From contig MHBH01000023.1 of assembly GCA_001804805.1 (NCBI GenBank), forward strand, positions 1-43,606: a stretch of DNA of 43,606 nt. The letters run 5' to 3'. A program made the translations under genes and the position numbers. The notes beneath the pieces were generated by a model. It was not told the origin of the DNA and searched no databases. It saw only the letters and a program-made list of their open reading frames with translations. Origin of the DNA: Lentisphaerae bacterium GWF2_49_21. GTDB taxonomy: Bacteria > Verrucomicrobiota > Lentisphaeria > Victivallales > GWF2-50-93. Below are positions 18,028 to 35,504 of the stretch, in pieces. Position 1 is the stretch's first letter; every line of letters begins with the position of its first letter.

Positions 18028-19650
18028 CTATTTCCTGTTTCCAGCCATCTCCTTCAATTTCCTCCACAATGTCGCGGTGCCGATACCGAGGATCTCGGCG
18101 GCCCTTGTCTTGTTGCCGGCGGTTTTCTCAAGGACGGAGAGGATATATTCCCTTTCAACTGATTCCAGGCTGGCGCCTTTGAATCCTAGCGGTTTTATTC
18201 CGAGGGAAATCAGGTTCTTCGGAAGATGTTCCGGATGGATCGTTCCGTCACCGGAAAAAACTGCCGCCCGTTCAATCACGTTCTCAAGTTCCCTGACATT
18301 CCCCGGCCAGTTGTATCCCATGAGATAGTCGAGGCATTTCGCATCGAGGCTCAGTTTTGGAAGTTTCAGTTTTCTGGAAACTTTCTTCACAATATTCCGC
18401 GCGAGCGGAAGAATGTCTTCCTTCCTGTCACGCAGAGGCGGAAGTTCAATCGTCACAACGGCAAGACGGTAGTAAAGATCCTCGCGGAAGCGCCCATTTT
18501 CCACATCCTGCATCAAATTCCTGTTTGTCGCGGCTATTATCCTCACGTCGATCTTCCTCGGGACATTCTCACCGAGCCGTACAATCTCCCGTTCCTGCAG
18601 GACGCGCAAAAGCTTGATCTGCATCTCCTGTGAGACATCTCCGATCTCGTCGAGCAGGACAGTTCCCTTGTCAGCCTGTTCGAGAAGTCCGATCCTGTCC
18701 CGCACAGCACCCGTGAACGCTCCGGCCTTGTATCCGAAAAGCTCGCCTTCGAGCAGGGTCTCGGGCAAGGCTCCGCAGTTGACCGCCGTGAAATTCTTCC
18801 CGCTCCTAGGCGACAGCCTGTGGATATATCTGGATATCACTTCCTTTCCGGTACCGCTTTCTCCCATGATGAGGACCGATGTGTCGAAACGCGAAACCCG
18901 CGAAACAAGTTCAAGTACCTTCCTGAACGATGCGCTGTGGACTTCTACGGCATCCAGCGCCGCAACGCCTTCAAGCGTATCGAGCTTTATCCTCTGCTTT
19001 GAGATCTCTCGGTCTTTTTTCTGAAGTTCCTTCGTGAGAGCATCGACTTTGAGCTGTATGTCTTCGGCCTCGAAGTATGATATATATTTTTCCAGGTCGG
19101 CGCCCCATGATTTTCCGTCCATTCCTTCCGCCATGCAGATCCTCGCGCCGGAGGCCCTGCATTTTTTTTCGATGAAGTAGACATCGAATCCGAGACAGAA
19201 GGAGGAATATCCGCTCGCGTATCCTGCAAGAGTCCAGCATACGGGATGATCCGTCTCTCCAAGCTGGGAAATATGCTCTTCCGCCTCCCCGGAATTATGC
19301 CAGAGGTATTCAATGCGGCATTTCTTCCCCGTCTCGTCGAGTTCATGTATTGTCATCTGGGTGTTGGATACGCCCTGCAGGGTCTGGAGACGTGCACCGG
19401 CCTTCAGCCATTCGGTGCTGTTCTCCCATTTGAAGATCCTTTTCATCGCGGCCGCGTCGGCCTGCCCCCAGAAATATCCGAATCTGGTCAGCACCTTCCT
19501 GGCGTAGTCCAGGCTAACCATACCTATCAGATCCTTCCTGAACTGTCCGAACGAATGCAGATCATGTATTATCAGCCTGCGCCCGTGAAGGCTAAGGAGC
19601 CCTTCGGAAAAATTCACTATCTCTTCAAGTTTTAAATCTTCAGCTTTCAT
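18028..19650 (-). CDS. Sigma-54-dependent transcriptional activator with XylR_N/V4R sensor domain
   Basis: This is a 540-residue bacterial enhancer-binding protein. Residues 1-185 resemble the XylR/DmpR-type sensor, with an XylR_N-like region and a V4R part containing Cys138, Cys152, Cys164 and Cys172 that could bind a small molecule or metal. A coiled linker (195-225) follows. The AAA+ domain has Walker A GESGTGKE (263-270), the sigma-54 contact loop GAFTGA (310-315) and Walker B VLLDEIGD (331-338). A Fis-type helix-turn-helix ends the protein (505-537, NKTRAAEILGIGTATLWRKL). AAGGAG precedes the ATG. It is divergent from the M20/acetate kinase genes and is probably their activator; XylR relatives respond to small aromatic effectors, but the ligand here is unknown. 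Confidence 0.95.
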   Translation of the reverse strand: MKAEDLKLEEIVNFSEGLLSLHGRRLIIHDLHSFGQFRKDLIGMVSLDYARKVLTRFGYFWGQADAAAMKRIFKWENSTEWLKAGARLQTLQGVSNTQMTIHELDETGKKCRIEYLWHNSGEAEEHISQLGETDHPVCWTLAGYASGYSSFCLGFDVYFIEKKCRASGARICMAEGMDGKSWGADLEKYISYFEAEDIQLKVDALTKELQKKDREISKQRIKLDTLEGVAALDAVEVHSASFRKVLELVSRVSRFDTSVLIMGESGTGKEVISRYIHRLSPRSGKNFTAVNCGALPETLLEGELFGYKAGAFTGAVRDRIGLLEQADKGTVLLDEIGDVSQEMQIKLLRVLQEREIVRLGENVPRKIDVRIIAATNRNLMQDVENGRFREDLYYRLAVVTIELPPLRDRKEDILPLARNIVKKVSRKLKLPKLSLDAKCLDYLMGYNWPGNVRELENVIERAAVFSGDGTIHPEHLPKNLISLGIKPLGFKGASLESVEREYILSVLEKTAGNKTRAAEILGIGTATLWRKLKEMAGNRK

Positions 19651-20004: not shown

Positions 20005-20020
20005 TGGCATGAATGGCGCT
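20005..20020 (+). promoter_or_regulatory. Candidate sigma-54 (-24/-12) promoter for the M20/acetate kinase genes
   Basis: TGGCATGAATGGCGCT has the obligatory GG-N10-GC spacing (GG at 20006-20007, GC at 20018-20019) and matches TGGCA and the final GCT of the consensus; the TT before GC is replaced by GC. The start point would be near 20031, about 30 nt before the ATG. The divergent sigma-54 activator supports the call. Confidence 0.5.
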
Positions 20021-20061: not shown

Positions 20062-21288
20062 ATGTACAGGATCATGAAAGACAGGAACGAGGCGATGAAG
20101 GATGAAGTCAGGGATTTCGCAAGCGAACTCCTTAAAATTTCAAGCATCAGCCAGAACGAGAAAAAAGCCGCGGAATTCATATGCGGAAAAATGAAACAGC
20201 TCGGTTACGATGATGCATTCATCGACAATGCGGGAAACGCGATCGGAGTCATCAGGGGGCGCACACCGGAAGCCGCTGTGATCCTCAATTCCCATATCGA
20301 CACAGTCTCTCCCGATGAAGAAAAATGGACGATGCCTCCTCTCAGCGGAAAGATCGAAGATGGCAAGCTCATGGGCGTCGGAGCAAGCGACTGCAAGGCG
20401 GGACTGGCGTCACAGATCTTCGCCGGAGCCCTGCTCAAGCGTTCGCTTCTGCCTATGCGCGGACCTTTCGTGGTCGCCGCGACTGTCGCAGAGGAGAACG
20501 GCTGCAGCATCGGACTTAGGAAATTTGTCTCCGACACCCTCCCCTCGCTCGGAATGAAGGCCGGCTTTGCGATTCTCGGTGAACCTACCGGAAACGGGCT
20601 CTACTACGGGCACGACGGCTGGGTCGAGGTCAACATCCATATCGAAGGCGCAAACCCCTTCCAGGTTTCCGACACTGCAAGATCTATCAACAGCGATCTT
20701 TCACTGGTCTCGATAAACAGGAATAAATTTGCAGCAATGGAGGAAATGAGCATCGGACGTCCTGTCTTCAACGACAATTCGGGATTCAGGGCCGCGGACA
20801 TGTGTGTTTCAAAACGCCTGAGAGGCAGTGAAAGCTCAGAGGAGGTCGTCTCCTGGCTCAACCATGAAGTCGGCGTGCTTGTGCAGAATGAAAGGAAAGT
20901 CGCGGTCGAAGTCGCGGTGATTTCCGAAAACCAGAAGATGTACAATGGAAGCAGGACCATCGTCAAGCGCGTTACGAACGCCTGGCAGACGGATCCCTAC
21001 AGTCCGCTGATGCAGAGGGCGCGCCAGTCCCTGTCAGCCGCGGAATGCGAAGTCCGCACTGGAAAATGGAATCTCGGCAGGCTCGGAATGGGTACCGCCG
21101 GAAGCGTCTTCTCCGGCGAATTCAAGATCCCGGTCATAGGATACGGTCCCGGAACCGAGGAATGCGCCCATGCTCCGGATGAATTTGTCCTCCTGGACAA
21201 GATATACGAGTCAGTCTACGGCACAGCGGCGATCGTCCATGGCCTTGTTGGGATCCCGGTATGCGGCTGGACCTCCGATGAAATATGA
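20062..21288 (+). CDS. M20-family metallohydrolase (YgeY/ArgE/DapE-like), probable amidohydrolase
   Basis: This 408-residue protein has the di-zinc site of M20 enzymes: His78 and Asp80 in LNSHIDTV, Asp110 in GASDCKAG, the catalytic pair Glu144-Glu145 in VAEENG, Glu174 in ILGEPT and His370 in EECAHAPDEF. Such enzymes cleave amide bonds of peptides, N-acylated amino acids or succinylated intermediates. The lid/dimer region reads EGANPFQVSDTARSIN where most relatives have a GRxAHxxxP-type motif, so the usual histidine is missing and the substrate may be unusual. AGGAG lies 8 nt before the ATG. It is first in a probable sigma-54-controlled operon with two acetate-kinase-family genes. Confidence 0.88.
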   Translation: MYRIMKDRNEAMKDEVRDFASELLKISSISQNEKKAAEFICGKMKQLGYDDAFIDNAGNAIGVIRGRTPEAAVILNSHIDTVSPDEEKWTMPPLSGKIEDGKLMGVGASDCKAGLASQIFAGALLKRSLLPMRGPFVVAATVAEENGCSIGLRKFVSDTLPSLGMKAGFAILGEPTGNGLYYGHDGWVEVNIHIEGANPFQVSDTARSINSDLSLVSINRNKFAAMEEMSIGRPVFNDNSGFRAADMCVSKRLRGSESSEEVVSWLNHEVGVLVQNERKVAVEVAVISENQKMYNGSRTIVKRVTNAWQTDPYSPLMQRARQSLSAAECEVRTGKWNLGRLGMGTAGSVFSGEFKIPVIGYGPGTEECAHAPDEFVLLDKIYESVYGTAAIVHGLVGIPVCGWTSDEI

Positions 21289-21313: not shown

Positions 21314-22519
21314 ATGAAGATAATAGTTTTCAACTGCGGCAGTTCATCCTTGAAATACAGGATCATTTCGATGCCGGATGAAAAGGAGATAGCCGGCGGA
21401 GAAGCCCAGAGGATCGGGCCGAAGACCGCCGAACCGTCACGGATCATCCATAGGCATGGCGATAAGACCGAGACGCATCTCGTTGAAATGCGCAGCCATG
21501 CCGAGGCTATGGCGGAAGTCAGGAAACTCCTTTCCACCGACAGTTCCCTTACCCCTGATGCGTTCGGACACAGGGTTGTGCATGGCGGCGGAGTTTTCAG
21601 TTCCGCCGCGCTGATCTCGGATGAATCCCTAGATCAGTTGGAGAAGATCAAGCATCTCGCGCCGATCCATAATCCGCCGGCGATGAAAATCATACATGCA
21701 TGCGGCAAGGAATATCCCGGTATTCCATCCGTGGCAGTCTTTGACACAGCGTTCCATGCGACAATTCCTGATTATGCATCGACATACTGCCTTCCCTATG
21801 AGATCTCAGAGAAATTGAAGATACGGAAATATGGATTCCACGGGACAAGCCACCAGTTCGTGGCAGAAGAGGCCGCAAAGATGCTGGGAAAACCATTCGG
21901 GGAACTGAATGCTGTCAGTTGCCATCTTGGCAGCGGAGGTGCAAGCCTATGCGCCATAGTCAATGGGAAGTCCGTTGACAATACGATGGGCTATTCACCG
22001 TTGCAGGGGCTCATCATGAGCACTCGATGCGGAGATCTCGATCCGGCGCTTACATTGAACCTCCTCCAGCATTTCATCGGCAGTACAGCTGATGTGGAAA
22101 GGCTTCTGAACACGCGCAGCGGAGTCCTGGGGATGTCCGGGGCTTCTGCCGACATCCGTGACATATTCTCATTGGACAAGCGTGACTGCGGCAACCAGAG
22201 GACCAGCCTGACGGCCGAGGCGTACCTGTGGAGGATAAAAAAGTATATCGGCTCCTATATGGCCGTGGTCAAAAATCTGGACGCAATCATCTTCACCGAC
22301 ACCATCGGGGAGCTTATACCGCATGTAAGGTGGGCTGTATGTTCAGACATGGAATACTTCGGGCTGAAAATAGATTCCGAAAAAAACGAGCATGCCGAAT
22401 CGCTTCCTGTTGATGTCTCACAGAAGGACAGCCGTGTGAAAATCCTGGTTGTCGCGACAAATGAGGAGCTCGCAATTGCAAGGAGGACCTACAGCTTGCT
22501 GGCAGGAGACAAACGATAA
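21314..22519 (+). CDS. ackA: Acetate kinase (or related short-chain acyl kinase)
   Basis: The 401-residue protein keeps the acetate kinase signatures: FNCGSSSLKY (Asn7), FGHRVVHGGG with the substrate Arg, VFDTAFHATIP with the catalytic Asp, KYGFHGTSH, SCHLGSGGASLCA, STRCGDLDP with the second Arg, and TNEELAIA near the end. It interconverts acetyl phosphate plus ADP with acetate plus ATP, the usual energy-yielding last step of fermentation; propionate or another acyl group is possible. It begins 25 nt after the M20 gene. No phosphotransacetylase is in the window, so this copy may use acyl phosphate from another source or serve a dedicated pathway. Confidence 0.95.
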   Translation: MKIIVFNCGSSSLKYRIISMPDEKEIAGGEAQRIGPKTAEPSRIIHRHGDKTETHLVEMRSHAEAMAEVRKLLSTDSSLTPDAFGHRVVHGGGVFSSAALISDESLDQLEKIKHLAPIHNPPAMKIIHACGKEYPGIPSVAVFDTAFHATIPDYASTYCLPYEISEKLKIRKYGFHGTSHQFVAEEAAKMLGKPFGELNAVSCHLGSGGASLCAIVNGKSVDNTMGYSPLQGLIMSTRCGDLDPALTLNLLQHFIGSTADVERLLNTRSGVLGMSGASADIRDIFSLDKRDCGNQRTSLTAEAYLWRIKKYIGSYMAVVKNLDAIIFTDTIGELIPHVRWAVCSDMEYFGLKIDSEKNEHAESLPVDVSQKDSRVKILVVATNEELAIARRTYSLLAGDKR

Positions 22520-22595
22520 AACACAGAGGAGAGACAGAGATATTACTCTGTGAACTCAAAGATAAGCATGAGATATTTTTGAATTGATTGATTTT

Positions 22596-22662
22596 GTTGG
22601 AGTACAAGCTTTAGCTTGCATCTTTTTTTAATACTAAGACAAACTGAAGTTTGTACTCCAAC
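22596..22662. repeat. Inverted pair of GTTGGAGT hairpin repeats
   Basis: Arms 22596-22618 and 22640-22662 are reverse complements with three differences and a 21-nt spacer. Each arm contains a small palindrome (CAAGCTTTAGCTTG and CAAACTGAAGTTTG). The unit recurs at 13534, 25013-25070, 25796 and 32542-32640. Confidence 0.7.
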
Positions 22663-22768
22663 GAGAGACAGTGAACATCGGCTCACATGCCTTCTAAATC
22701 AGTCCATGTATTTCTCTCGGATCTCTGTGGTTAATCTTAAAATACTTAATAACTGATGGAGTAAGAAC

Positions 22769-23821
22769 ATGAACATAATTTCAATATCGCAGAACGTTTC
22801 CAGACTTGAGTTTGCTTTGTTCGACAAGATTGGCGGCGCCCCCCTTGCCGAAGGCGAACTTAAGAACTGGATGAACCAGGAGATTTTCAAAAGCATTCCG
22901 GAAAAAATAACGTTGCTATGCGGAAAAACGCTGAGGATGAAGAACAGGGCTTTCTCCGCGGACCTGATCTGCATACGGGCCCCCTACGGCGGAGAGGATT
23001 TCAAATCCCCTGAACTGCTGACAGACAAAAGCATTAAAAAGCTCAGGAAGATCGAGCATGTCGCACCAATGCATATTCCGGCGCTGATAGAACTGATAAA
23101 CCTGTTGAAGGATTATTTCCGAGGAACTCCTATTTCACTTGTCTTTGAAACCTCCTTCTTCACCCGTCTTCCCGAACGCGAATACGTATACGCCGTCGAT
23201 CCGGGGCTTGCAGGCGGAATTCCCCTGCGGAGGTTCGGATACCATGGGATATTCCATGAGAGGGCTTTTGAATTTTCCCACGATAAGGACAAAGGAAGAT
23301 CAAGGGTAATCTCAATCTGTCTTGAACCAATACCTGAAATATGCGCCGTCAAGAACGGGAATCCGCTCATGGTTACCGGAGGGGCGACTCCTTTGGAAGG
23401 GCTCCCCGGCGAAACGACATGCGGCGATATTGACCCGCTCATAATCCTCTCACTTTCCGAAAGCCTCGGATGGGGTCCGGAAGAGATAAACAAGACTCTT
23501 TCACGGAAAAGCGGGATTCAGGGCTTGACCGGAAAGAAAATGAATTTCGCCGGACTTTTCTCCTCCAGCGATTCCAATGCAGTCCTTGCGAAGAATCTTT
23601 TCCTATACAAGATCCTGCTTGCAACAGGAAGCGCGATTGCAGCTATGGGAGGTGTTGATGCGATCGTATTTTCTGGAAGATACCACGATCTCGGAAAGGA
23701 AATCCATACTTATCTCCTTTCAAAGCTGGATCTGCCAGTTGACAACTGCGAGGTACTGCCGGACAATCTCCTCAGATTGACCGCCGAGGCCGGGCTCCTG
23801 TCACTCCTGAAGAATAAATAA
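22769..23821 (+). CDS. Acetate kinase paralogue with degenerate active site (probable pseudokinase)
   Basis: This 350-residue protein aligns with acetate kinase through HVAPMHIPALIELI, RRFGYHGIFHERAF, GGATPLEGLPGETTCGDIDP and the C-terminal domain. The catalytic residues are changed: the N-terminal NxGSSS loop is replaced by SQNVSR, FDTAFH by FETSFF (Asp to Glu, His to Phe), HLGSGG by CLEPIP, STRCGD by ETTCGD (Arg to Thr) and TNEE by TAEA. Arg70 in CIRAPYGG remains. The frame is intact and GGAG precedes the ATG, so it looks maintained rather than decaying. A regulatory or structural partner of the acetate kinase just upstream is the simplest idea. A 249-nt spacer with repeats separates the two. 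Confidence 0.85.
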   Translation: MNIISISQNVSRLEFALFDKIGGAPLAEGELKNWMNQEIFKSIPEKITLLCGKTLRMKNRAFSADLICIRAPYGGEDFKSPELLTDKSIKKLRKIEHVAPMHIPALIELINLLKDYFRGTPISLVFETSFFTRLPEREYVYAVDPGLAGGIPLRRFGYHGIFHERAFEFSHDKDKGRSRVISICLEPIPEICAVKNGNPLMVTGGATPLEGLPGETTCGDIDPLIILSLSESLGWGPEEINKTLSRKSGIQGLTGKKMNFAGLFSSSDSNAVLAKNLFLYKILLATGSAIAAMGGVDAIVFSGRYHDLGKEIHTYLLSKLDLPVDNCEVLPDNLLRLTAEAGLLSLLKNK

Positions 23822-24247: not shown

Positions 24248-24922
24248 ATGAAGAAGCTGATGATGATCGCAGTGCTGTGTCTTTTGGCCGGAGCTTTCCT
24301 GTCCGCACAAAATCAACCCGCAGGAGTTCCAGGAAATGAAACCAGTCCCGCAGTAAAGAATGCTGAAAATACCCCTCCGCCGCCCCAGCAAGGATTCAGA
24401 GGGCCCCAAATGCGTTTCGGACAGGGAATGCCCGGTGGAGAAATGAAAGAAGCATGTCAAAATTGCACGATGCAGATGAACAAGCCCGGACAAGACCGCG
24501 AAGGGATGGAAGGTAGAGGCAGGCAGATGCCCCAGAATATGAGGGGCCAGCAGGAACGGCAGGAACAGGAAATGATGGAAAACCGACTCAGGGAGATCGA
24601 TCCCAAGAAGTTCGAGGAAATAAGCAAGCTTAAGGACCAGGTCAGGGAAATGACCCAGCAGCTTATGGAAAAGGCCCGGAAGGATGAAGAGGACTTCAGG
24701 AAGCTTGTGGAAAAATACCGTGAGACGAAAGCCGACACCGACAAGGCCGCACTCAGGGCGAAGATCGAAGAGCGCATGAAGAACAATTTGGAGTCTCAGA
24801 AACAACGCATCTCCGAAGAGGAAAAGAATATCCAGTCCAAGGTCGACAGGATCCTGAATGAAATCACTTCAGAAAAGGGCCCTGCCAAAGAGAAGAAGAA
24901 TGAAACGATTGAACGTAAGTAG
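24248..24922 (+). CDS. Exported coiled-coil protein, Met/Gln/Gly-rich
   Basis: An AGGAGG site precedes the ATG. The 224-residue product has a signal peptide (MKKLMMIAVLCLLAGAFLSAQ), then a low-complexity region rich in Pro, Gly, Gln and Met (GFRGPQMRFGQGMPGGEM) with one CQNC pair, and a long charged helix (about 120-215) likely to form a coiled coil. This layout resembles Spy/CpxP/ZraP-type periplasmic chaperone or metal-binding proteins, although clear LTxxQ motifs are absent. It precedes the ECF sigma factor and shares composition with later genes of the cluster, so it may belong to the same regulon. Confidence 0.75.
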   Translation: MKKLMMIAVLCLLAGAFLSAQNQPAGVPGNETSPAVKNAENTPPPPQQGFRGPQMRFGQGMPGGEMKEACQNCTMQMNKPGQDREGMEGRGRQMPQNMRGQQERQEQEMMENRLREIDPKKFEEISKLKDQVREMTQQLMEKARKDEEDFRKLVEKYRETKADTDKAALRAKIEERMKNNLESQKQRISEEEKNIQSKVDRILNEITSEKGPAKEKKNETIERK

Positions 24923-25012
24923 GAAATAGGGTGGACATAACCAGCTTCGCCGGAACTCATAATATTTTTGACAGGATAACAGGATTCTACAGGATTTGAA
25001 CCAAGTTCAAGA

Positions 25013-25070
25013 GTCAAGACAGCCTAAAGGCTGGACTCCAAATTTTGGAGTTCACACTTCAGTGTGTCTT
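25013..25070. repeat. Head-to-head GTTGGAGT hairpin repeats within a repeat-rich spacer
   Basis: A minus-oriented copy (25013-25042, core CAGCCTTTAGGCTG) abuts a plus-oriented copy (25043-25070, core CACACTTCAGTGTG). They are flanked by AGGATAACAGGATT-type (about 24973) and ATCCTGTAATCCTGT-type (about 25084) segments, also inverted with respect to each other. No gene is seen between 24923 and 25207. Confidence 0.6.
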
Positions 25071-25207
25071 ATTAAATCCAGTTTATCCTGTAATCCTGTC
25101 TAAAAATACAATTTCCTATACTATCAAGTTTCCTTTTTTTACAGGATTCATGTCATATATTTAGGTTTCATGCACGACTAATCATCAAATATAGGCACTG
25201 AATCCTG

Positions 25208-25765
25208 ATGGATGAGATTGAACTGCGGGCACAGCTTGAGAAGCATCATTCAGTATGTTATGGATGGGCGTTGAACTGCTGTTCGCATGACAGGACGGAG
25301 GCGAAGGACGTGCTTCAGATGGCATACATGAAAGTTCTCGAGGGCAAGGCCTCTTACAAGGGGCAGTCCTCTTTCAAGACATGGTTCTTCTCGGTGATCC
25401 GCAACACTGCGGCCGAGGAATGGAGACGTCACTGGTTCCGGCGCCTGGGGCTTGCGAAGTTCGCACAGGAACAGGTGACAGCATCAGACGACGGGGAGCC
25501 ACGGGACATGTCGGAAGTTTCAAAGGCGTTCCGGAGCATTTTCGCAAAGCTGCCGGGGCGCCAGCAGGAAGTGCTGCATCTGGTGTTCTACCAGGACATG
25601 AGCGTGCAGGAGGCGTCAGTGGTAATGGGAGTGTCAATAGGTTCGGCCCGTACGCACTATGAGCGGGGCAAGGAGAACATGAGGAAGTTTTTAAGGCACA
25701 CTGGTACAGAGGCACTGAGTTCGGAAGTTCGGGAATGCGGAAGTGCGGAAGTGCGAAAGTTCTAG
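25208..25765 (+). CDS. ECF-subfamily RNA polymerase sigma factor
   Basis: The 185-residue protein has sigma region 2 (CYGWALNCCSHDRTEAKDVLQ, then SSFKTWFFSVIRNTAAEEWRR) and region 4 (FAKLPGRQQEVLHLVFYQ, SVQEASVVMGVSIGSARTH) with no region 1 or 3, the ECF layout. It directs transcription of a dedicated regulon, normally held by a membrane anti-sigma factor; the next gene fits that role. No strong ribosome site precedes the ATG at 25208. The last ~15 residues (SSEVRECGSAEVRKF) are encoded by an 8-bp tandem repeat and the stop codon lies inside that repeat, so the tail is probably not part of the conserved fold. Confidence 0.93.
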   Translation: MDEIELRAQLEKHHSVCYGWALNCCSHDRTEAKDVLQMAYMKVLEGKASYKGQSSFKTWFFSVIRNTAAEEWRRHWFRRLGLAKFAQEQVTASDDGEPRDMSEVSKAFRSIFAKLPGRQQEVLHLVFYQDMSVQEASVVMGVSIGSARTHYERGKENMRKFLRHTGTEALSSEVRECGSAEVRKF

Positions 25766-25791
25766 AATGCGGAAGTTCGGAAGTGTGGATG
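25720..25791 (+). repeat. 8-bp tandem repeat (nine units) spanning the end of the sigma factor gene
   Basis: Units of the form TTCGGAAG or TGCGGAAG repeat nine times without interruption. The sigma factor stop TAG (25763-25765) is created by a variant in unit six (TTCTAGAA). Because 8 is not a multiple of 3, gain or loss of units ahead of the stop would shift the reading frame of the C-terminal tail. Confidence 0.8.
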
Positions 25792-25931
25792 TTTTGTTGG
25801 AGTACAAACTTTAGTTTATCTTTTCTTAAAATTCGGTTCTTTGGAATTTTTTCCGGATTTCGTGCTTTGAGTTTCGAATTTTAAATATTTCGACAACAGG
25901 CGTGTAAATTTAATTACGGATGGGAATAAAG

Positions 25932-26306
25932 ATGAAGAACGATGAATTGGAAACCAGGCTGAAAGATTCCTTCAGCGGAATGCGCGCCGAAGATGAGGCG
26001 AATGCGCCTTCCTTTGAAAGCTGTACGTCTTCACCTGCTGCAAGGACACTCTCATATTCTCCTATAATATGGCGGCTTGCCGCATCCTTTGCGCTTATCG
26101 CATTTGTCGGAGCGGGCGTCCTAAAACTCCAGAATTGCTCAAGCAATCCTTCTTCAAGCAGCCCTTCTCAGGAACTGCAGCAGGAGAAGTGGGCCTCCAT
26201 ATCGAGCTGGCAGGCCGGTACCGACAATCTGCTTACGATGACGGACACCCATCTGGACGGATCATTCACAACTGGCACGGACCTATTGATAGAGGGAAGC
26301 CTATAG
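25932..26306 (+). CDS. Putative anti-sigma factor (single-pass membrane protein)
   Basis: The ATG at 25932 follows a GGATGGGA stretch and is preferred to the one 12 nt upstream. The 124-residue product has a short charged cytoplasmic part (MKNDELETRLKDSFSGM), one membrane helix (IIWRLAASFALIAFVGAGVL), then a Ser/Gln-rich extracytoplasmic tail. Position directly after an ECF sigma gene and this topology suggest an anti-sigma factor, but no ZAS/zinc motif (HxxxCxxC) is visible. The assignment is contextual. It is followed after 111 nt by the Spy-like gene. Confidence 0.6.
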   Translation: MKNDELETRLKDSFSGMRAEDEANAPSFESCTSSPAARTLSYSPIIWRLAASFALIAFVGAGVLKLQNCSSNPSSSSPSQELQQEKWASISSWQAGTDNLLTMTDTHLDGSFTTGTDLLIEGSL

Positions 26307-26417
26307 GAATCATAACCACAGAACACCTGGAGTAGCTACGCTACAACCAAAACATGTGCCCACAGATAACACAGATAAAAAAACAACCACGAAAGCTAAA
26401 TGAAAGGATACTTTGAT

Positions 26418-26972
26418 ATGAAAAAGATCATTATGACTGGCATATTCACGATGTTTGCCGTTGCATGCTGGGCACAGGATCCTAATCCGGGCAAGCCCCA
26501 GGACCAGAATGCGCCCGGAGGCTCATCAATGAGGCATACGAGGATGTTTGGAATGTCCTTCAACGAGGAGCTGTTCCCTCCGGAATCCGTAATGCAGAAC
26601 CAGCAGGCCCTCGGCCTGACAGACGAACAGAAGAAGTCCATACTGGAAGTAATGAAGACATTCTCGGCGCAGTTCACGGAACTCCAGTGGAAACAGAGCG
26701 CTGAGCAGGAGATCATGTCGGAACTGCTGAAGCAGGAGCAGGTCGACGAGACCAAGTCCCTTGCACAGCTCGATAAACTCATGGCAATAGAAAATGAGAT
26801 AAAACGCCTTAACCTGGGCAATCTGATCAAGATCAGAAACCTTCTGACAGCAGAACAGAAGACCAAGATGAAATCGTTAAGGCAGTCGATGATGATGAAG
26901 ATGATGGAAGGTGCAAGGGAAAGACGCGGCGGCGCAAATCCTCCTCCTCCTCCAAAACCTCAGGATGAATGA
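26418..26972 (+). CDS. Spy/LTXXQ-like periplasmic protein
   Basis: The ATG at 26418 gives a clean signal peptide (MKKIIMTGIFTMFAVACWAQ); an ATG 18 nt upstream is in frame but less likely. The mature 165 residues are mostly helical and contain the paired motif of the Spy/CpxP/ZraP family: ALGLTDEQKKSILE (about 70) and RNLLTAEQKTKMKSL (about 140), with a charged helical hairpin between. These proteins are periplasmic chaperones or metal-responsive sensors. The C-terminus ends in a Gly/Pro-rich tail (GGANPPPPPKPQDE). The stop overlaps the prepilin start by 4 nt (ATGA), so the two are translationally coupled. Confidence 0.78.
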   Translation: MKKIIMTGIFTMFAVACWAQDPNPGKPQDQNAPGGSSMRHTRMFGMSFNEELFPPESVMQNQQALGLTDEQKKSILEVMKTFSAQFTELQWKQSAEQEIMSELLKQEQVDETKSLAQLDKLMAIENEIKRLNLGNLIKIRNLLTAEQKTKMKSLRQSMMMKMMEGARERRGGANPPPPPKPQDE

Positions 26973-27655
26973 TGAAAATAAAGAATCTCCTGATGGCCAC
27001 CCTATTTCCGCCTCATCCGGCTTCGCAAGACTACGCCGTGACAAGGGCAACTGGGTATTACGGACGCCATCCCTCGCCTCACGGGGGGTCGGAGATTCTT
27101 TATAACAAAAGAAAATCGAAGCCGAATATATTTATTTTTGGTGAAAAAAATAAATTCACTCTTATCGAGTTATTAGTAGTAATAGCAATCATCGGAATTC
27201 TCTTCGGTCTTGTCGCCCCTGCCCTGAACAAGGTCAAACAGAAGGCGAACAGTACGAAATGCCTGAACAACCTCCATAATATCTCGCTCGCGTTCCAAGG
27301 CTATCTTCTGAGCTCAGGAGACATCATGCCGATCGCCTCCACAATGCCGTCACTCAACCTCAACACCGATCCTAGGATCGTCGATGTCCTGTCATCGGAG
27401 CTCCAGAACAATACTGCAGTATTCCAATGTCCGGCCGACAACTCTCCGGTCGACAACGGCAAGACTTATTTCGAGGCTGAAGGTTCCAGCTATGAATACA
27501 TGGTCAACCTCGGGGGAAGGAAGATTGACCGGTCTACACGGCCGCCTGCAACAAATCCTGTAATGCACGATTATATCTGTTTCCATGGAATACCGACTAA
27601 ACCCGGAGCAATGAATTATATTCTGGCCGACTGGCATGTCGGCGATTTAGAATAG
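26969..27655 (+). CDS. Type II secretion/type IV prepilin-like protein with long leader
   Basis: The 228-residue product contains the prepilin N-terminal signature KFTLIELLVVIAIIGIL, with Glu at +5 and a hydrophobic helix, followed by ALNKVKQKANSTKCLNNLHNISLAFQGY and a globular domain ending in MNYILADWHVGDLE. The processing site is preceded by an unusually long leader of about 60 residues (rich in His, Pro and Arg). Long variable leaders before this motif are frequent in Lentisphaerota pseudopilins, as far as I recall. The leader and the H-x(n)-DG-like ending resemble the large DUF1559-type group. It overlaps the Spy-like gene by 4 nt and lies 10 nt before the next gene. Confidence 0.85.
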   Translation: MMKIKNLLMATLFPPHPASQDYAVTRATGYYGRHPSPHGGSEILYNKRKSKPNIFIFGEKNKFTLIELLVVIAIIGILFGLVAPALNKVKQKANSTKCLNNLHNISLAFQGYLLSSGDIMPIASTMPSLNLNTDPRIVDVLSSELQNNTAVFQCPADNSPVDNGKTYFEAEGSSYEYMVNLGGRKIDRSTRPPATNPVMHDYICFHGIPTKPGAMNYILADWHVGDLE

Positions 27656-27665
27656 GAAAAATGAC

Positions 27666-28310
27666 ATGAACAAAAAATATTTTATCAGCGTTTTCGTCCT
27701 GCTTGCAGCCTTGTCGGGCGTATTGGCATACTATAAATATTTTCCTGAACCCAAGCTTCCCGATCCCAAGGAGCAGAAGCCTGTAGAAATAGCCAAGCTG
27801 ATGGCTTCGGATGATTTTTCAAAGCTGCCTGAAAAAGTCAGGGACAAATACCTTGAAAACCTGGTGAACCAGGAGAATACCAGGGAGATATTCTATTCGT
27901 CGGAAGGGATGACCGAAGATCAGAAGAAAAACCTGAGGGAGAACATGCGGGCTGTCTTTGATCTGAGGACGAAAATAACTGCGGACGAATACTTTGCGCT
28001 GCCTCCCGACAAGAGGGAGGAATACTTGGACAAGAAGATTGACGAGATGGCGGAACGTTTCGCAGAAAGGCGGAGAAATGCTGAAGCCCAGGGCGGAACC
28101 GGCAACATGCCCGGACCTGGCGCATGGGGTCCCGGTGGAGGACAGGGAGGAGGACCACCCGGACAAGGTGGTAGCGGTGGAAGAAGGCAGGGGCCGACAG
28201 CCCAGCAGGTAAAAAGCAGGATCGAGACGACTGATCCCGCGACCAGGGCGAAGACGGCCCAGTACCGGAAGGAAATGCGTGAGAGGATGCAGCAGCGCAG
28301 AAGCAATTGA
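27666..28310 (+). CDS. Exported or membrane-anchored protein with Gly/Pro-rich linker
   Basis: The 214-residue protein starts with an uncleaved-looking hydrophobic segment (MNKKYFISVFVLLAALSGVLAYY). A helical region follows (KLMASDDFSKLPEKVRDKYLE, MTEDQKKNLRENM, YFALPPDKREEYLDKKI), whose L-P-x-(D/E)-(K/R) repeats resemble each other. A very Gly/Pro-rich linker (about 145-180, GPGGGQGGGPPGQGG) leads to a basic helical C-terminus (YRKEMRERMQQRRSN). No family is recognised. Spacing to both neighbours is short, so it belongs to the same operon as the prepilin and the next gene. Confidence 0.72.
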   Translation: MNKKYFISVFVLLAALSGVLAYYKYFPEPKLPDPKEQKPVEIAKLMASDDFSKLPEKVRDKYLENLVNQENTREIFYSSEGMTEDQKKNLRENMRAVFDLRTKITADEYFALPPDKREEYLDKKIDEMAERFAERRRNAEAQGGTGNMPGPGAWGPGGGQGGGPPGQGGSGGRRQGPTAQQVKSRIETTDPATRAKTAQYRKEMRERMQQRRSN

Positions 28311-28352
28311 TTCAAAGAACAAGGAAATAAATATTAATCAAAGGAGATGATG

Positions 28353-28979
28353 ATGAAAAAGATGACTGTCGTGTTGGTGTCGGGCTGCCTTTTATCAGGA
28401 GCAATGTTTTTAACGGGTGGTTCTGTTCTCGGCCAGGAGGACAAGGACCAGATTGCAGCTCCGCAGAATCCTGCAGCTGACAAAGCAGCGGATAAGCCGG
28501 CAGACAAAGGAGCTGACAAGGCGGCTGCGCAAGGAGGAAACCAGCGTCAGGGGCAGCGTCAGGGTCCGGGAAATTTTGATCCGCAGAAAATGCAACAGCA
28601 GTTCATGGACAGCATAAAGGAAACACTCAGCGTCACTGATGAGGACTGGAATACTATGAAGCCGCTGATAGAAAAAGTAATGACTTTGTCGCGTGAACTC
28701 CGTTCACAGGGACGGATGGGATTTACTGGTGGCCGTCGCGGTGGCCCTGGTGGAACAGAGCAGCAGCCCACAACCGACGCCGGTAAGGCGATCCAGGCTC
28801 TCAAGACAACCTTGGACAATGCAAACTCCACTCCGGAGGAAATCAAGGCCAGCCTGGATGCTGTGCGCGCGGTAAAGAAGAAGTCCGAAGGGGATCTCGC
28901 AAAGGCGAAGGAAGAACTGCTTAAAGCAATTACTCCGCGACAGGAAGGAAGACTTGTACAGCTGGGCATAATTGATTGA
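28353..28979 (+). CDS. Exported helical protein with Ala/Lys/Asp and Gly/Gln-rich segments
   Basis: Three ATGs stand in a row at 28347, 28350 and 28353; AAGGAG at 28341-28346 best fits the last, giving 208 residues. A signal peptide (MKKMTVVLVSGCLLSGAMFL) leads to a repetitive segment (KAADKPADKGADKAA), a Gln/Arg/Gly-rich linker and a helical domain (FMDSIKETLSVTDEDWNTMKP, LIEKVMTLSREL) with a Gly-rich loop (GGRRGGPGG). The DEDWxxMKPxxEKV segment recurs in exported proteins of PVC bacteria, as I recall, without a known function. The stop is followed within 3 nt by a strong hairpin. Confidence 0.72.
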   Translation: MKKMTVVLVSGCLLSGAMFLTGGSVLGQEDKDQIAAPQNPAADKAADKPADKGADKAAAQGGNQRQGQRQGPGNFDPQKMQQQFMDSIKETLSVTDEDWNTMKPLIEKVMTLSRELRSQGRMGFTGGRRGGPGGTEQQPTTDAGKAIQALKTTLDNANSTPEEIKASLDAVRAVKKKSEGDLAKAKEELLKAITPRQEGRLVQLGIID

Positions 28980-33790: not shown

Positions 33791-34795
33791 TCACTTCTTG
33801 GCTGAAGCCTGTTCTACGGCTACTGCAACAGCTACCGAAGCACCGACCATCGGATTATTGCCCATCCCGATCAGCCCCATCATCTCCACATGGGCAGGAA
33901 CTGACGAAGATCCAGCAAACTGGGCGTCTGAGTGCATGCGTCCCATGGTATCCGTCATGCCATAGGATGCAGGACCTGCCGCCATGTTGTCAGGATGAAG
34001 GGTACGGCCTGTTCCACCGCCGCTCGCCACGGAAAAATATTTCTTCCCCTGCTCGAGGCATTCCTTCTTATAGGTACCCGCAACAGGATGCTGGAAACGT
34101 GTGGGATTGGTGGAATTGCCGGTGATGGAAACGTCGACGCCCTCATGATGGTTGATGGCGACGCCTTCACGGACATCGTCGGCACCGTAGCATCTCACCT
34201 TCGCGCGGTCGCCGGTCGAATAGGCAGTTTCCTTTACAATCTTGAGCTTGCCTGTGAAATAGTCGAACTTGGTCTGCACATATGTGAAACCGTTGATTCG
34301 GGAAATAATAAACGCAGCATCTTTGCCAAGACCATTTAGTATCACCTTGAGAGGCTTCTTGCGGACGCGGTTTGCGGATTTCGCAAGACCGATCGCCCCC
34401 TCAGCCGCGGCAAAAGACTCATGCCCTGCGAGGAAGGCGAAACAAGCCGTCTCCTCCTTGAGCAGCATTGATGCGAGGTTGCCATGGCCGATACCGACCT
34501 TGCGGTCGTCAGCCACAGATCCGGGAATGCAGAATGCCTGAAGGCCTTCGCCCAGAGTCTGCGCAATGTCTGCGGCCCTGGTCTGCCCTTTTTTAACAGC
34601 AATAGCCGCGCCGAGGATATAGGCCCAGCATGCGTTCTCAAAGCATATCGGCTGGACACCCTTCACAATATCATATACGTTTACGCCTTTATCTTCACAG
34701 ATCTTTTTAGCCTCTTCAAGAGACTTGATGCCGTATTTCTTGAGCACCGGATTGATCTGGCCTATTCTTCTGTCATAACTTTCAAAAAGTGCCAT
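33791..34795 (-). CDS. GGGtGRT family protein
   Basis: The 334-residue product contains the family-naming motif in SVASGGGTGRTLHPDN (about residue 275), together with FCIPGSVADDRKVGIGHGNL and HEGVDVSITGNSTNPTRFQHP. The family is found mainly in anaerobes and has no established biochemical role; it regularly sits beside a NifU-like scaffold gene, as it does here, pointing to Fe-S cluster or sulfur chemistry. The start ATG at 34795 has AAGGA upstream; an ATG 102 nt further upstream lies inside the preceding gene and is rejected. It follows the NifU-like gene by 16 nt and ends at a strong terminator. Confidence 0.9.
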   Translation of the reverse strand: MALFESYDRRIGQINPVLKKYGIKSLEEAKKICEDKGVNVYDIVKGVQPICFENACWAYILGAAIAVKKGQTRAADIAQTLGEGLQAFCIPGSVADDRKVGIGHGNLASMLLKEETACFAFLAGHESFAAAEGAIGLAKSANRVRKKPLKVILNGLGKDAAFIISRINGFTYVQTKFDYFTGKLKIVKETAYSTGDRAKVRCYGADDVREGVAINHHEGVDVSITGNSTNPTRFQHPVAGTYKKECLEQGKKYFSVASGGGTGRTLHPDNMAAGPASYGMTDTMGRMHSDAQFAGSSSVPAHVEMMGLIGMGNNPMVGASVAVAVAVEQASAKK

Positions 34796-34811
34796 TTTAG
34801 TGTCGTCCTTT

Positions 34812-35504
34812 CTATTCGTGTCTGGGATCAATGTAGGTTTTCGCTTCCGCAAAACGTCCGTATGTGCCTGTCGCCTTCTTGAGCGCCTCGTTGGCATCTA
34901 CGCCTTTCTTGATGGCATCCATCATCTTGCCGAGACTGACGAATTCATATCCGATGATCTCCTTGTTCTCATCGAGGGCGATCCTGTTTACATATCCCTC
35001 TGCCATCTCAAGATATCTCGGTCCCTTCTTCACGGTGCTGAACATTGTCCCGCACACACTGCGCAACCCCTTGCCCAGATCCTCGAGTCCGGCTCCTATG
35101 GGAAGTCCGCCCTCGGAAAATGCCGTCTGCGTACGGCCGTAGACGATCTGCAGGAAAAGTTCCCTCATTGCGGTGTTGATGGCATCGCAGACAAGATCTG
35201 TGTTCATGGCTTCAAGTATTGTCTTGCCGGCGAGGATTTCCGCGGCCATGGCGGCGGAATGGGTCATGCCTGTACAGCCAAGGGTCTCAACAAGAGCCTC
35301 CTGGATGACGCCGTCCTTGACGTTGAGGGTCAGCTTGCAGGCGCCCTGCTGCGGAGCGCACCAGCCCACGCCGTGGGTAAGGCCGTTGATGTCCTTGACT
35401 TCCTTTGCCTGTGTCCACTTGCCCTCCTGAGGTATCGGGGCGGGCCCATGGTCGGGTCCCTTCGCGACACAAGTCATTTGTTCCACTTCATGCGAATACA
35501 TCAT
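34812..35504 (-). CDS. NifU/IscU-like iron-sulfur cluster assembly scaffold protein
   Basis: The 230-residue protein has three conserved cysteine sites of the IscU/NifU_N fold: GACKLTLNVKDG, ETLGCTGMTHSA and GLRSVCGTMF, with further cysteines at GWCAP and DLVCDA. Such proteins assemble an Fe-S cluster and pass it to target enzymes. It is longer than IscU and is paired with the GGGtGRT gene 16 nt downstream, an arrangement typical of anaerobes. AAGGAG precedes the ATG pair at 35504/35501. No IscS-type desulfurase is present in the window, so sulfur would come from elsewhere. Confidence 0.88.
   Translation of the reverse strand: MMYSHEVEQMTCVAKGPDHGPAPIPQEGKWTQAKEVKDINGLTHGVGWCAPQQGACKLTLNVKDGVIQEALVETLGCTGMTHSAAMAAEILAGKTILEAMNTDLVCDAINTAMRELFLQIVYGRTQTAFSEGGLPIGAGLEDLGKGLRSVCGTMFSTVKKGPRYLEMAEGYVNRIALDENKEIIGYEFVSLGKMMDAIKKGVDANEALKKATGTYGRFAEAKTYIDPRHE

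Follow-up and report, generated by a model that had tools for sequence, protein, structure and literature searches.

An acetate kinase paralogue that has lost its catalytic residues, AckX, is encoded next to an acetate kinase that keeps them, AckA2, in DNA from Lentisphaerae bacterium GWF2_49_21 (contig MHBH01000023.1, assembly GCA_001804805.1; the 43,606 nt analysed are referred to as the window). We propose, with a probability of roughly 0.7, that the two proteins make up an acyl kinase of two subunits, in which AckA2 does the catalysis and AckX is an obligate, non-catalytic partner. This reading is favoured because ackX lies directly 3' of ackA2 in 26 of 26 distinct species, with start and stop codons overlapping in most loci, and because a second, independent pair of kinase and degenerate twin was found. 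Features are listed in Table 1.

Table 1. Positions of the module features in the window and, in the last row, of the second kinase and twin module in three other loci.
Feature	Position	Strand	Evidence or remark
Divergent sigma-54 activator (XylR_N, V4R, AAA+, Fis-type HTH)	18028..19650	-	Domain matches
Possible sigma-54 (-24/-12) promoter, TGGCATGAATGGCGC	20005..20019	+	Weak here; 43 nt before the M20 start
M20-family hydrolase, DapE/ArgE/YgeY-like	20062..21288	+	Profile matches, conserved residues
AckA2, acetate kinase with intact catalytic residues and PPi-type ATP-site motifs	21314..22519	+	Pfam (401 bits), motifs, trees
ackA2-ackX gap (249 bp) with genome-wide repeat	22520..22768		Repeat arms at 22596-22618 and 22640-22662
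AckX, acetate kinase paralogue without catalytic residues	22769..23821	+	Pfam, residue map, AlphaFold model, dN/dS
Second module (kinase, twin, FolE2)	L163 2521-5583; L164 1403-4468; L180 2115-5268	-; -; +	Two Myxococcales, one Verrucomicrobiota

AckX: residues, fold and selection

The AckX reading frame is open throughout and encodes 350 amino acids; a GGAG ribosome site (22758-22761) stands 7 nt ahead of the ATG, confirming the intact frame and good ribosome site described in the first-pass annotation of this DNA. The protein matches the Acetokinase family in Pfam (Acetate_kinase, PF00871) with 150 bits and an E-value of 1e-43, the curated cut-off being 22 bits, and it matches the NCBIfam model TIGR00016 (ackA) with 139 bits, under the 293-bit cut-off of that model. 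AckX and AckA2 are 26% identical, and since the E-value of their match is 9e-36, the likeness is not due to chance.

Residues are numbered here as in Methanosarcina ACK, from alignments with the Methanosarcina sequence. The loss of catalytic motifs claimed in the first-pass annotation was borne out: 12 canonical residues have been substituted in the window protein and in almost every orthologue, namely N7, S10, S12 and K14 in PHOSPHATE1, H208 and N211 in PHOSPHATE2, G239 and R241 in LOOP3, D283 and R285 in LOOP4, G331 in ADENOSINE, and E384 (the roles of N211, G239, G331 and R285 are described in PMC4390882 and PMC5517563). The substitutes include Glu or Pro for N211, Glu or Gln for G239 and Arg for G331, and the magnesium, nucleotide and main phosphate residues are all missing. 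R91, H123, H180 and H184 are mostly retained, leaving a partial acyl side with Arg91 in 20/23, His180 in 19/23 and Glu in place of Asp148 in 22/23. Within the catalytic set N7, R91, D148, H180, R241 and E384, three residues (N7, R241, E384) are gone, D148 has become Glu, and R91 and H180 are present; on this residue evidence AckX would not be classed as an active acetate kinase (EC 2.7.2.1). The FGYHG and CGDIDP motifs remain, as the same annotation had stated.

AckX proteins also carry a family signature (FETxFF, SICLExRPE, GLPGExxCGEIDP and FSGRY) that is absent from the kinases compared. Conservation peaks at 211-240 and 301-330 and is lowest in the N-terminal PHOSPHATE1 region and at the C-terminus. 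The signature bears on the possibility that AckX is an enzyme with a different activity on an acyl substrate, using conserved residues of its own; the candidates would be Glu148, His184, Cys208, Glu211/Glu214 of SICLExRPE, and the GLPGExxCGEIDP segment. Polar residues that are invariant in the family are found along what were the active-site loops, and their conservation exceeds what a scaffold needs. However, AckX has neither a nucleotide loop nor a phosphate loop, the degenerate twin of the second pair has lost even these residues, and the structural model of AckX is at its least confident around the former phosphate site and LOOP3 (pLDDT <50 at 205-224), so that a new enzymatic activity is improbable.

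The AlphaFold model of AckX (pLDDT 82, pTM 0.82) contains the complete two-domain acetate kinase fold. Foldseek matched it to acetate kinases with a TM of 0.82, the best match in the PDB being an acetate kinase, and the model superimposed on 6ioy over 341 residues (Z 33.1) and on 2iir over 342. By the NG86 method, dN/dS of AckX is 0.06-0.14 within the order of the window's species: three congeneric species gave 0.06-0.09 (dS 0.38-0.90), and the window's own genus gave 0.08-0.14, with dS near saturation. These values are near those of AckA2 and of the M20-family hydrolase; in close pairs from Myxococcales and Planctomycetota the ratio rises to as much as 0.27. Mean pairwise difference is 0.60 for AckX versus 0.42 for AckA2, indicating that AckX evolves faster. 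No frame breaks were found in AckX orthologues apart from contig ends. The short AckX of one genome (G005, locus L026) was considered as a break, but its contig is small, and the final 130 bp have no match in AckX and read as a different protein; the case was attributed to the contig end and not scored as decay. An origin of AckX as an assembly artefact was ruled out by the same gene order in independent genomes and collections.

Could AckX be an ordinary ackA duplicate that is decaying and has been kept by chance? The lost catalytic motifs and the faster evolution relative to AckA2 would be expected of such a gene, but the low dN/dS and a frame that is intact wherever no contig end truncates the gene, across at least seven phyla, refute decay and leave it with almost no probability. 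The first-pass annotation had read selection for a non-catalytic role from the intact frame, with a heteromer partner or a metabolite sensor as examples, and had named structure prediction with superposition on acetate kinase, dN/dS across orthologues and frame breaks as ways of checking it; the complete predicted fold, the absence of relaxed selection in the window's order, the unbroken frames and the cross-phylum signature support selection for such a role.

Gene order, partners and distribution of the module

Orthologues of AckX occur in 25 other species belonging to at least seven phyla. They were found in the window's genus and order and, in a collection of named genomes, in Lentisphaerota, Verrucomicrobiota, Kiritimatiellota, Omnitrophota, Planctomycetota, Bacteroidota, and Myxococcota or deltaproteobacteria. 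The Kiritimatiellota carriers are two strains of Pontiellaceae, neither of whose records bears a MAG label. When AckA2 alone was used to search 388 Verrucomicrobiota genomes, 11 matches were obtained with scores far above the next, and all 11 had the M20 gene before and ackX after. A search of 343 Planctomycetota genomes for AckA2 returned only the seed genome, as did a motif scan for PPi-type kinases in 266 Myxococcota genomes, and the module is therefore rare. In Pontiellaceae B12219 a serine recombinase is encoded near the module (L083, 8320-9894, minus strand), which is in keeping with horizontal transfer.

At their junction ackA2 and ackX usually overlap, by 4 nt (ATGA) or by 13 to 20 nt; G001, L080 and the window instead have gaps of 9, 17 and 249 bp, respectively. 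The window gap contains a REP-like inverted repeat, GTTGGAGTACAAGCTTTAGCTTG (22596-22662), for which the genome holds 163 matches with up to 3 mismatches and the reversed control none. Because this repeat has about 160 genomic copies, the gap is probably a recent local insertion, and sister species have an overlap or 9 bp at the junction and no such gap. The 249-bp separation in this species also means that tight translational coupling is not essential. Farther downstream, positions 24248-28979 hold small genes for low-complexity Met/Gln/Pro/Gly-rich secreted proteins. The same stretch encodes an ECF sigma factor (25208-25765) and, at 26969-27655, a type IV pilin-like prepilin; in G001 (L024) ackX is followed by a similar set. 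A GGGtGRT protein (PF14057, 659 bits), from a highly conserved family with no function given in its Pfam entry, is encoded at 33791-34897 on the minus strand.

Sequence upstream of AckA2 is available for 24 species, and in 23 of them (all but L085) it encodes the M20-family hydrolase. His78, Asp110, Glu144, Glu174 and His370 are conserved and Glu145 mostly so; the metal ligands are retained save for Gln in place of Glu145 in one genus. The nearest subfamilies are DapE, ArgE and YgeY, and their resemblance suggests that the substrate may be an N-acyl compound; naming the M20 subfamily or its substrate was rejected, as the protein scores well below each NCBIfam cut-off. Two other potential clues to the substrate were set aside: the genes flanking the four-gene module differ between genera and genomes, and a phosphoketolase lies near the module only in G077 and G078. 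Distance matrices of the four module genes are correlated at r 0.94-0.96, and since these matrices agree while the genes outside vary, the module moves as a unit. A mirror-tree argument for binding was rejected, as all four genes correlate equally, which speaks for co-inheritance only.

The divergent XylR_N/V4R activator was found in 16 of 18 loci with enough sequence. At the same place upstream of the M20 gene, several orthologous loci have TTGGCATGGCAATTGCT or a close variant, a match that is strong in those loci and weak in the window. The activator bears on the idea that AckX is a free-standing ligand sensor or effector and not a stable subunit of AckA2, although the two roles may be combined. 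A sensor of this kind would bind an acyl compound or acyl phosphate in the remnant pocket and act on the sigma-54 activator or on flux. It would account for the co-inheritance of AckX and activator, and for an acyl side that is partly kept when the nucleotide residues are gone. We regard it as unlikely, however: the codon overlap of ackX in most loci is with ackA2 and not with the activator gene, two Planctomycetes loci (L079 and L085) have AckA2-AckX with no activator nearby, and in the second pair type no such activator adjoins the genes and the twin keeps a different remnant.

That second pair points to the subunit reading. Two Myxococcales genomes with the AckX module also carry a second PPi-motif kinase (CHLGTGGSS, VMSTRSG, VFTDDIG), whose gene overlaps that of its own degenerate acetate kinase, with a FolE2-type GTP cyclohydrolase gene coming next. 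A motif scan found the same trio in one Verrucomicrobiota genome, making three genomes in all. The twin in these loci is 23% identical to AckX and has different losses, including R91, H123 and H180. All bacterial PPi-motif acetate kinases encountered here thus adjoin a degenerate twin, in two unlike gene settings. This recurrence is the strongest indirect evidence that the twin goes with the enzyme, not with a single pathway.

The ATP site of AckA2 and its affinity to the Entamoeba enzyme

AckA2 retains N7, S10, S12, R91, H123, D148, H180, R241 and E384. Its motifs CHLGSGGAS, MSTRCGD and FTDTIGE correspond to HLGNG, MGTRxGD and FTGGIGE in ATP-type enzymes. The first-pass annotation had used this neighbouring gene as the standard for AckX, a choice that did not hold up, its HLGSGG, STRCGD and FTDTIGE being variant, PPi-type motifs; an ordinary ackA followed by pta (phosphotransacetylase) is located on another contig (contig 17) of the same genome.

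Among solved structures, the best match to the PHOSPHATE2/LOOP3 stretch of AckA2 was 4H0O, the PPi-dependent acetate kinase of Entamoeba histolytica (EhACK), to our knowledge the only PPi-dependent acetate kinase described. AckA2 and EhACK have in common an extra Gly in PHOSPHATE2, Thr/Ser for N211, Ser239, Asp330 and the lack of Gly331; the extra Gly, Ser239 and the lack of Gly331 are found in all AckA2 copies. In about 75 ATP-type acetate kinases, drawn from relatives and from Planctomycetota, the EhACK-type changes never occur in combination; one (L116) has Ser239 alone. The extra Gly is Gly203 of EhACK, a residue singled out in PMC5517563; EhACK with Gly203 deleted on top of Q323G-M324I is inactive (PMC5517563). 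A further acetate kinase variant was noted in Planctomycetota (L126, L127, L128, L131 and L165), in which CHLGGSSS, PHNNRVG and VFTGGIGEN replace HLGNG and MGTRxG; it forms its own clade (100/100), paralogous to the canonical copy.

In an unrooted tree of 46 kinases, AckA2, the second bacterial group and EhACK are split from all ATP-type kinases (96/94). The split, likewise unrooted, survives masking of the diagnostic motif columns (95/86). EhACK groups with the second-module kinase, and in the masked tree is sister to a Verrucomicrobiota member of that group (99/81); split and placement alike are to be read with the caution that EhACK is a long branch whose composition departs from the other sequences. 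These results make PPi use by AckA2 plausible, at about even odds. The genome encodes a membrane pyrophosphatase, and a PPi economy is therefore plausible as well.

ATP use by AckA2 may also be considered, given that position 331 is Thr and not Gln as in Entamoeba and that Ile332 is kept. A heteromer of AckA2 and AckX that uses ATP, its PPi-like motifs compensated by other changes, is a credible reading, though one we would not bet on. AckA2 keeps Glu334 in addition to Ile332, has good overall scores with ATP enzymes, is 45% identical to Methanosarcina ACK versus 34% to EhACK, and lacks the Gln-Met at 331-332 that occludes the adenosine pocket in EhACK (Thr-Ile in AckA2, Asp-Ile in the second branch); moreover, Cryptococcus ACK has Ser at 211 and yet uses ATP (PMC4390882). 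On the other hand, N211S, G239S and G331Q each lower the activity of Methanosarcina ACK 100- to 200-fold as single changes (PMC4390882), whereas AckA2 combines equivalents of N211S and G239S with the extra Gly, Asp330 and Thr at 331; its grouping with EhACK also persists when the motifs are masked.

A proposed two-subunit acyl kinase

From the gene order and the residue patterns, a heteromer of AckA2 and AckX is likely. Acetate kinases are homodimers, and AckX would therefore take the place of one protomer. The product would be an AckA2-AckX heterodimer or an A2X2 assembly, AckX standing to AckA2 as TsaB does to TsaD, and AckX would stabilise or gate the AckA2 active site. An acyl ligand may be bound in the remnant pocket of AckX (Arg91, His180, Glu148). 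By extension from EhACK, phosphate transfer would probably run between acyl phosphate and Pi/PPi and not ADP/ATP. The M20 hydrolase would supply or remove the acyl substrate. A small molecule, acting through the XylR_N/V4R activator, probably induces the module.

There is precedent for such partnerships. TsaB is a degenerate ASKHA-fold paralogue and the obligate partner of TsaD, with which it forms a heterodimer or A2B2 (PMC9654439). As would be expected of a pair of this kind, the degenerate paralogue is always encoded with the catalytic one here (all 26 species for AckX and three genomes for the second pair); TsaB-TsaD differs in belonging to another ASKHA family with another reaction, and in that its association is proven, whereas that of AckX with AckA2 is deduced. 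Apicomplexan PanK1 and PanK2 are homologous kinase-family proteins in one complex, from a family thought to be only homodimeric (PMC8366970), but they represent another kinase family and share no operon. Canonical AckA, TdcD and PduW have the same fold and Pfam family as AckX and AckA2; in contrast to them, AckX is without catalytic residues and AckA2 has a changed ATP site. Canonical ackA also stands alone or with pta, unlike ackA2-ackX, and the duplicated ackA of Lactococcus encodes two active isozymes (PMC3956926). EhACK resembles AckA2 in its ATP-site changes and its side of the tree, and differs as a eukaryotic single protein with no degenerate partner known; PPi use is a property of EhACK and only a prediction for AckA2.

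Several points run counter to a heteromer. Operon order and codon overlap would also be seen for two proteins that serve the same pathway without ever being in contact. EhACK works with no known twin, so that a PPi-type kinase can do without one. AckX, moreover, evolves faster than its supposed partner.

No prior description of an AckA2-AckX system was found in searches of the open-licence literature. Tentatively, and at somewhat less than even odds, we suggest a bacterial clade of PPi-dependent acyl kinases that are always heteromeric with a degenerate subunit and occur in at least two module types (one with M20 and the sigma-54 activator, the other with FolE2), from which EhACK would be derived as a member that runs without the second subunit. 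Acetate kinase is the textbook homodimeric ATP-forming enzyme, and a conserved two-subunit version with a dead subunit, if true, would add an architecture new to the family. EhACK, which comes from an amoebic parasite and is the only PPi-dependent acetate kinase known, would then fall inside a bacterial clade, and both its origin and the switch from ATP to PPi would become testable by comparing relatives.
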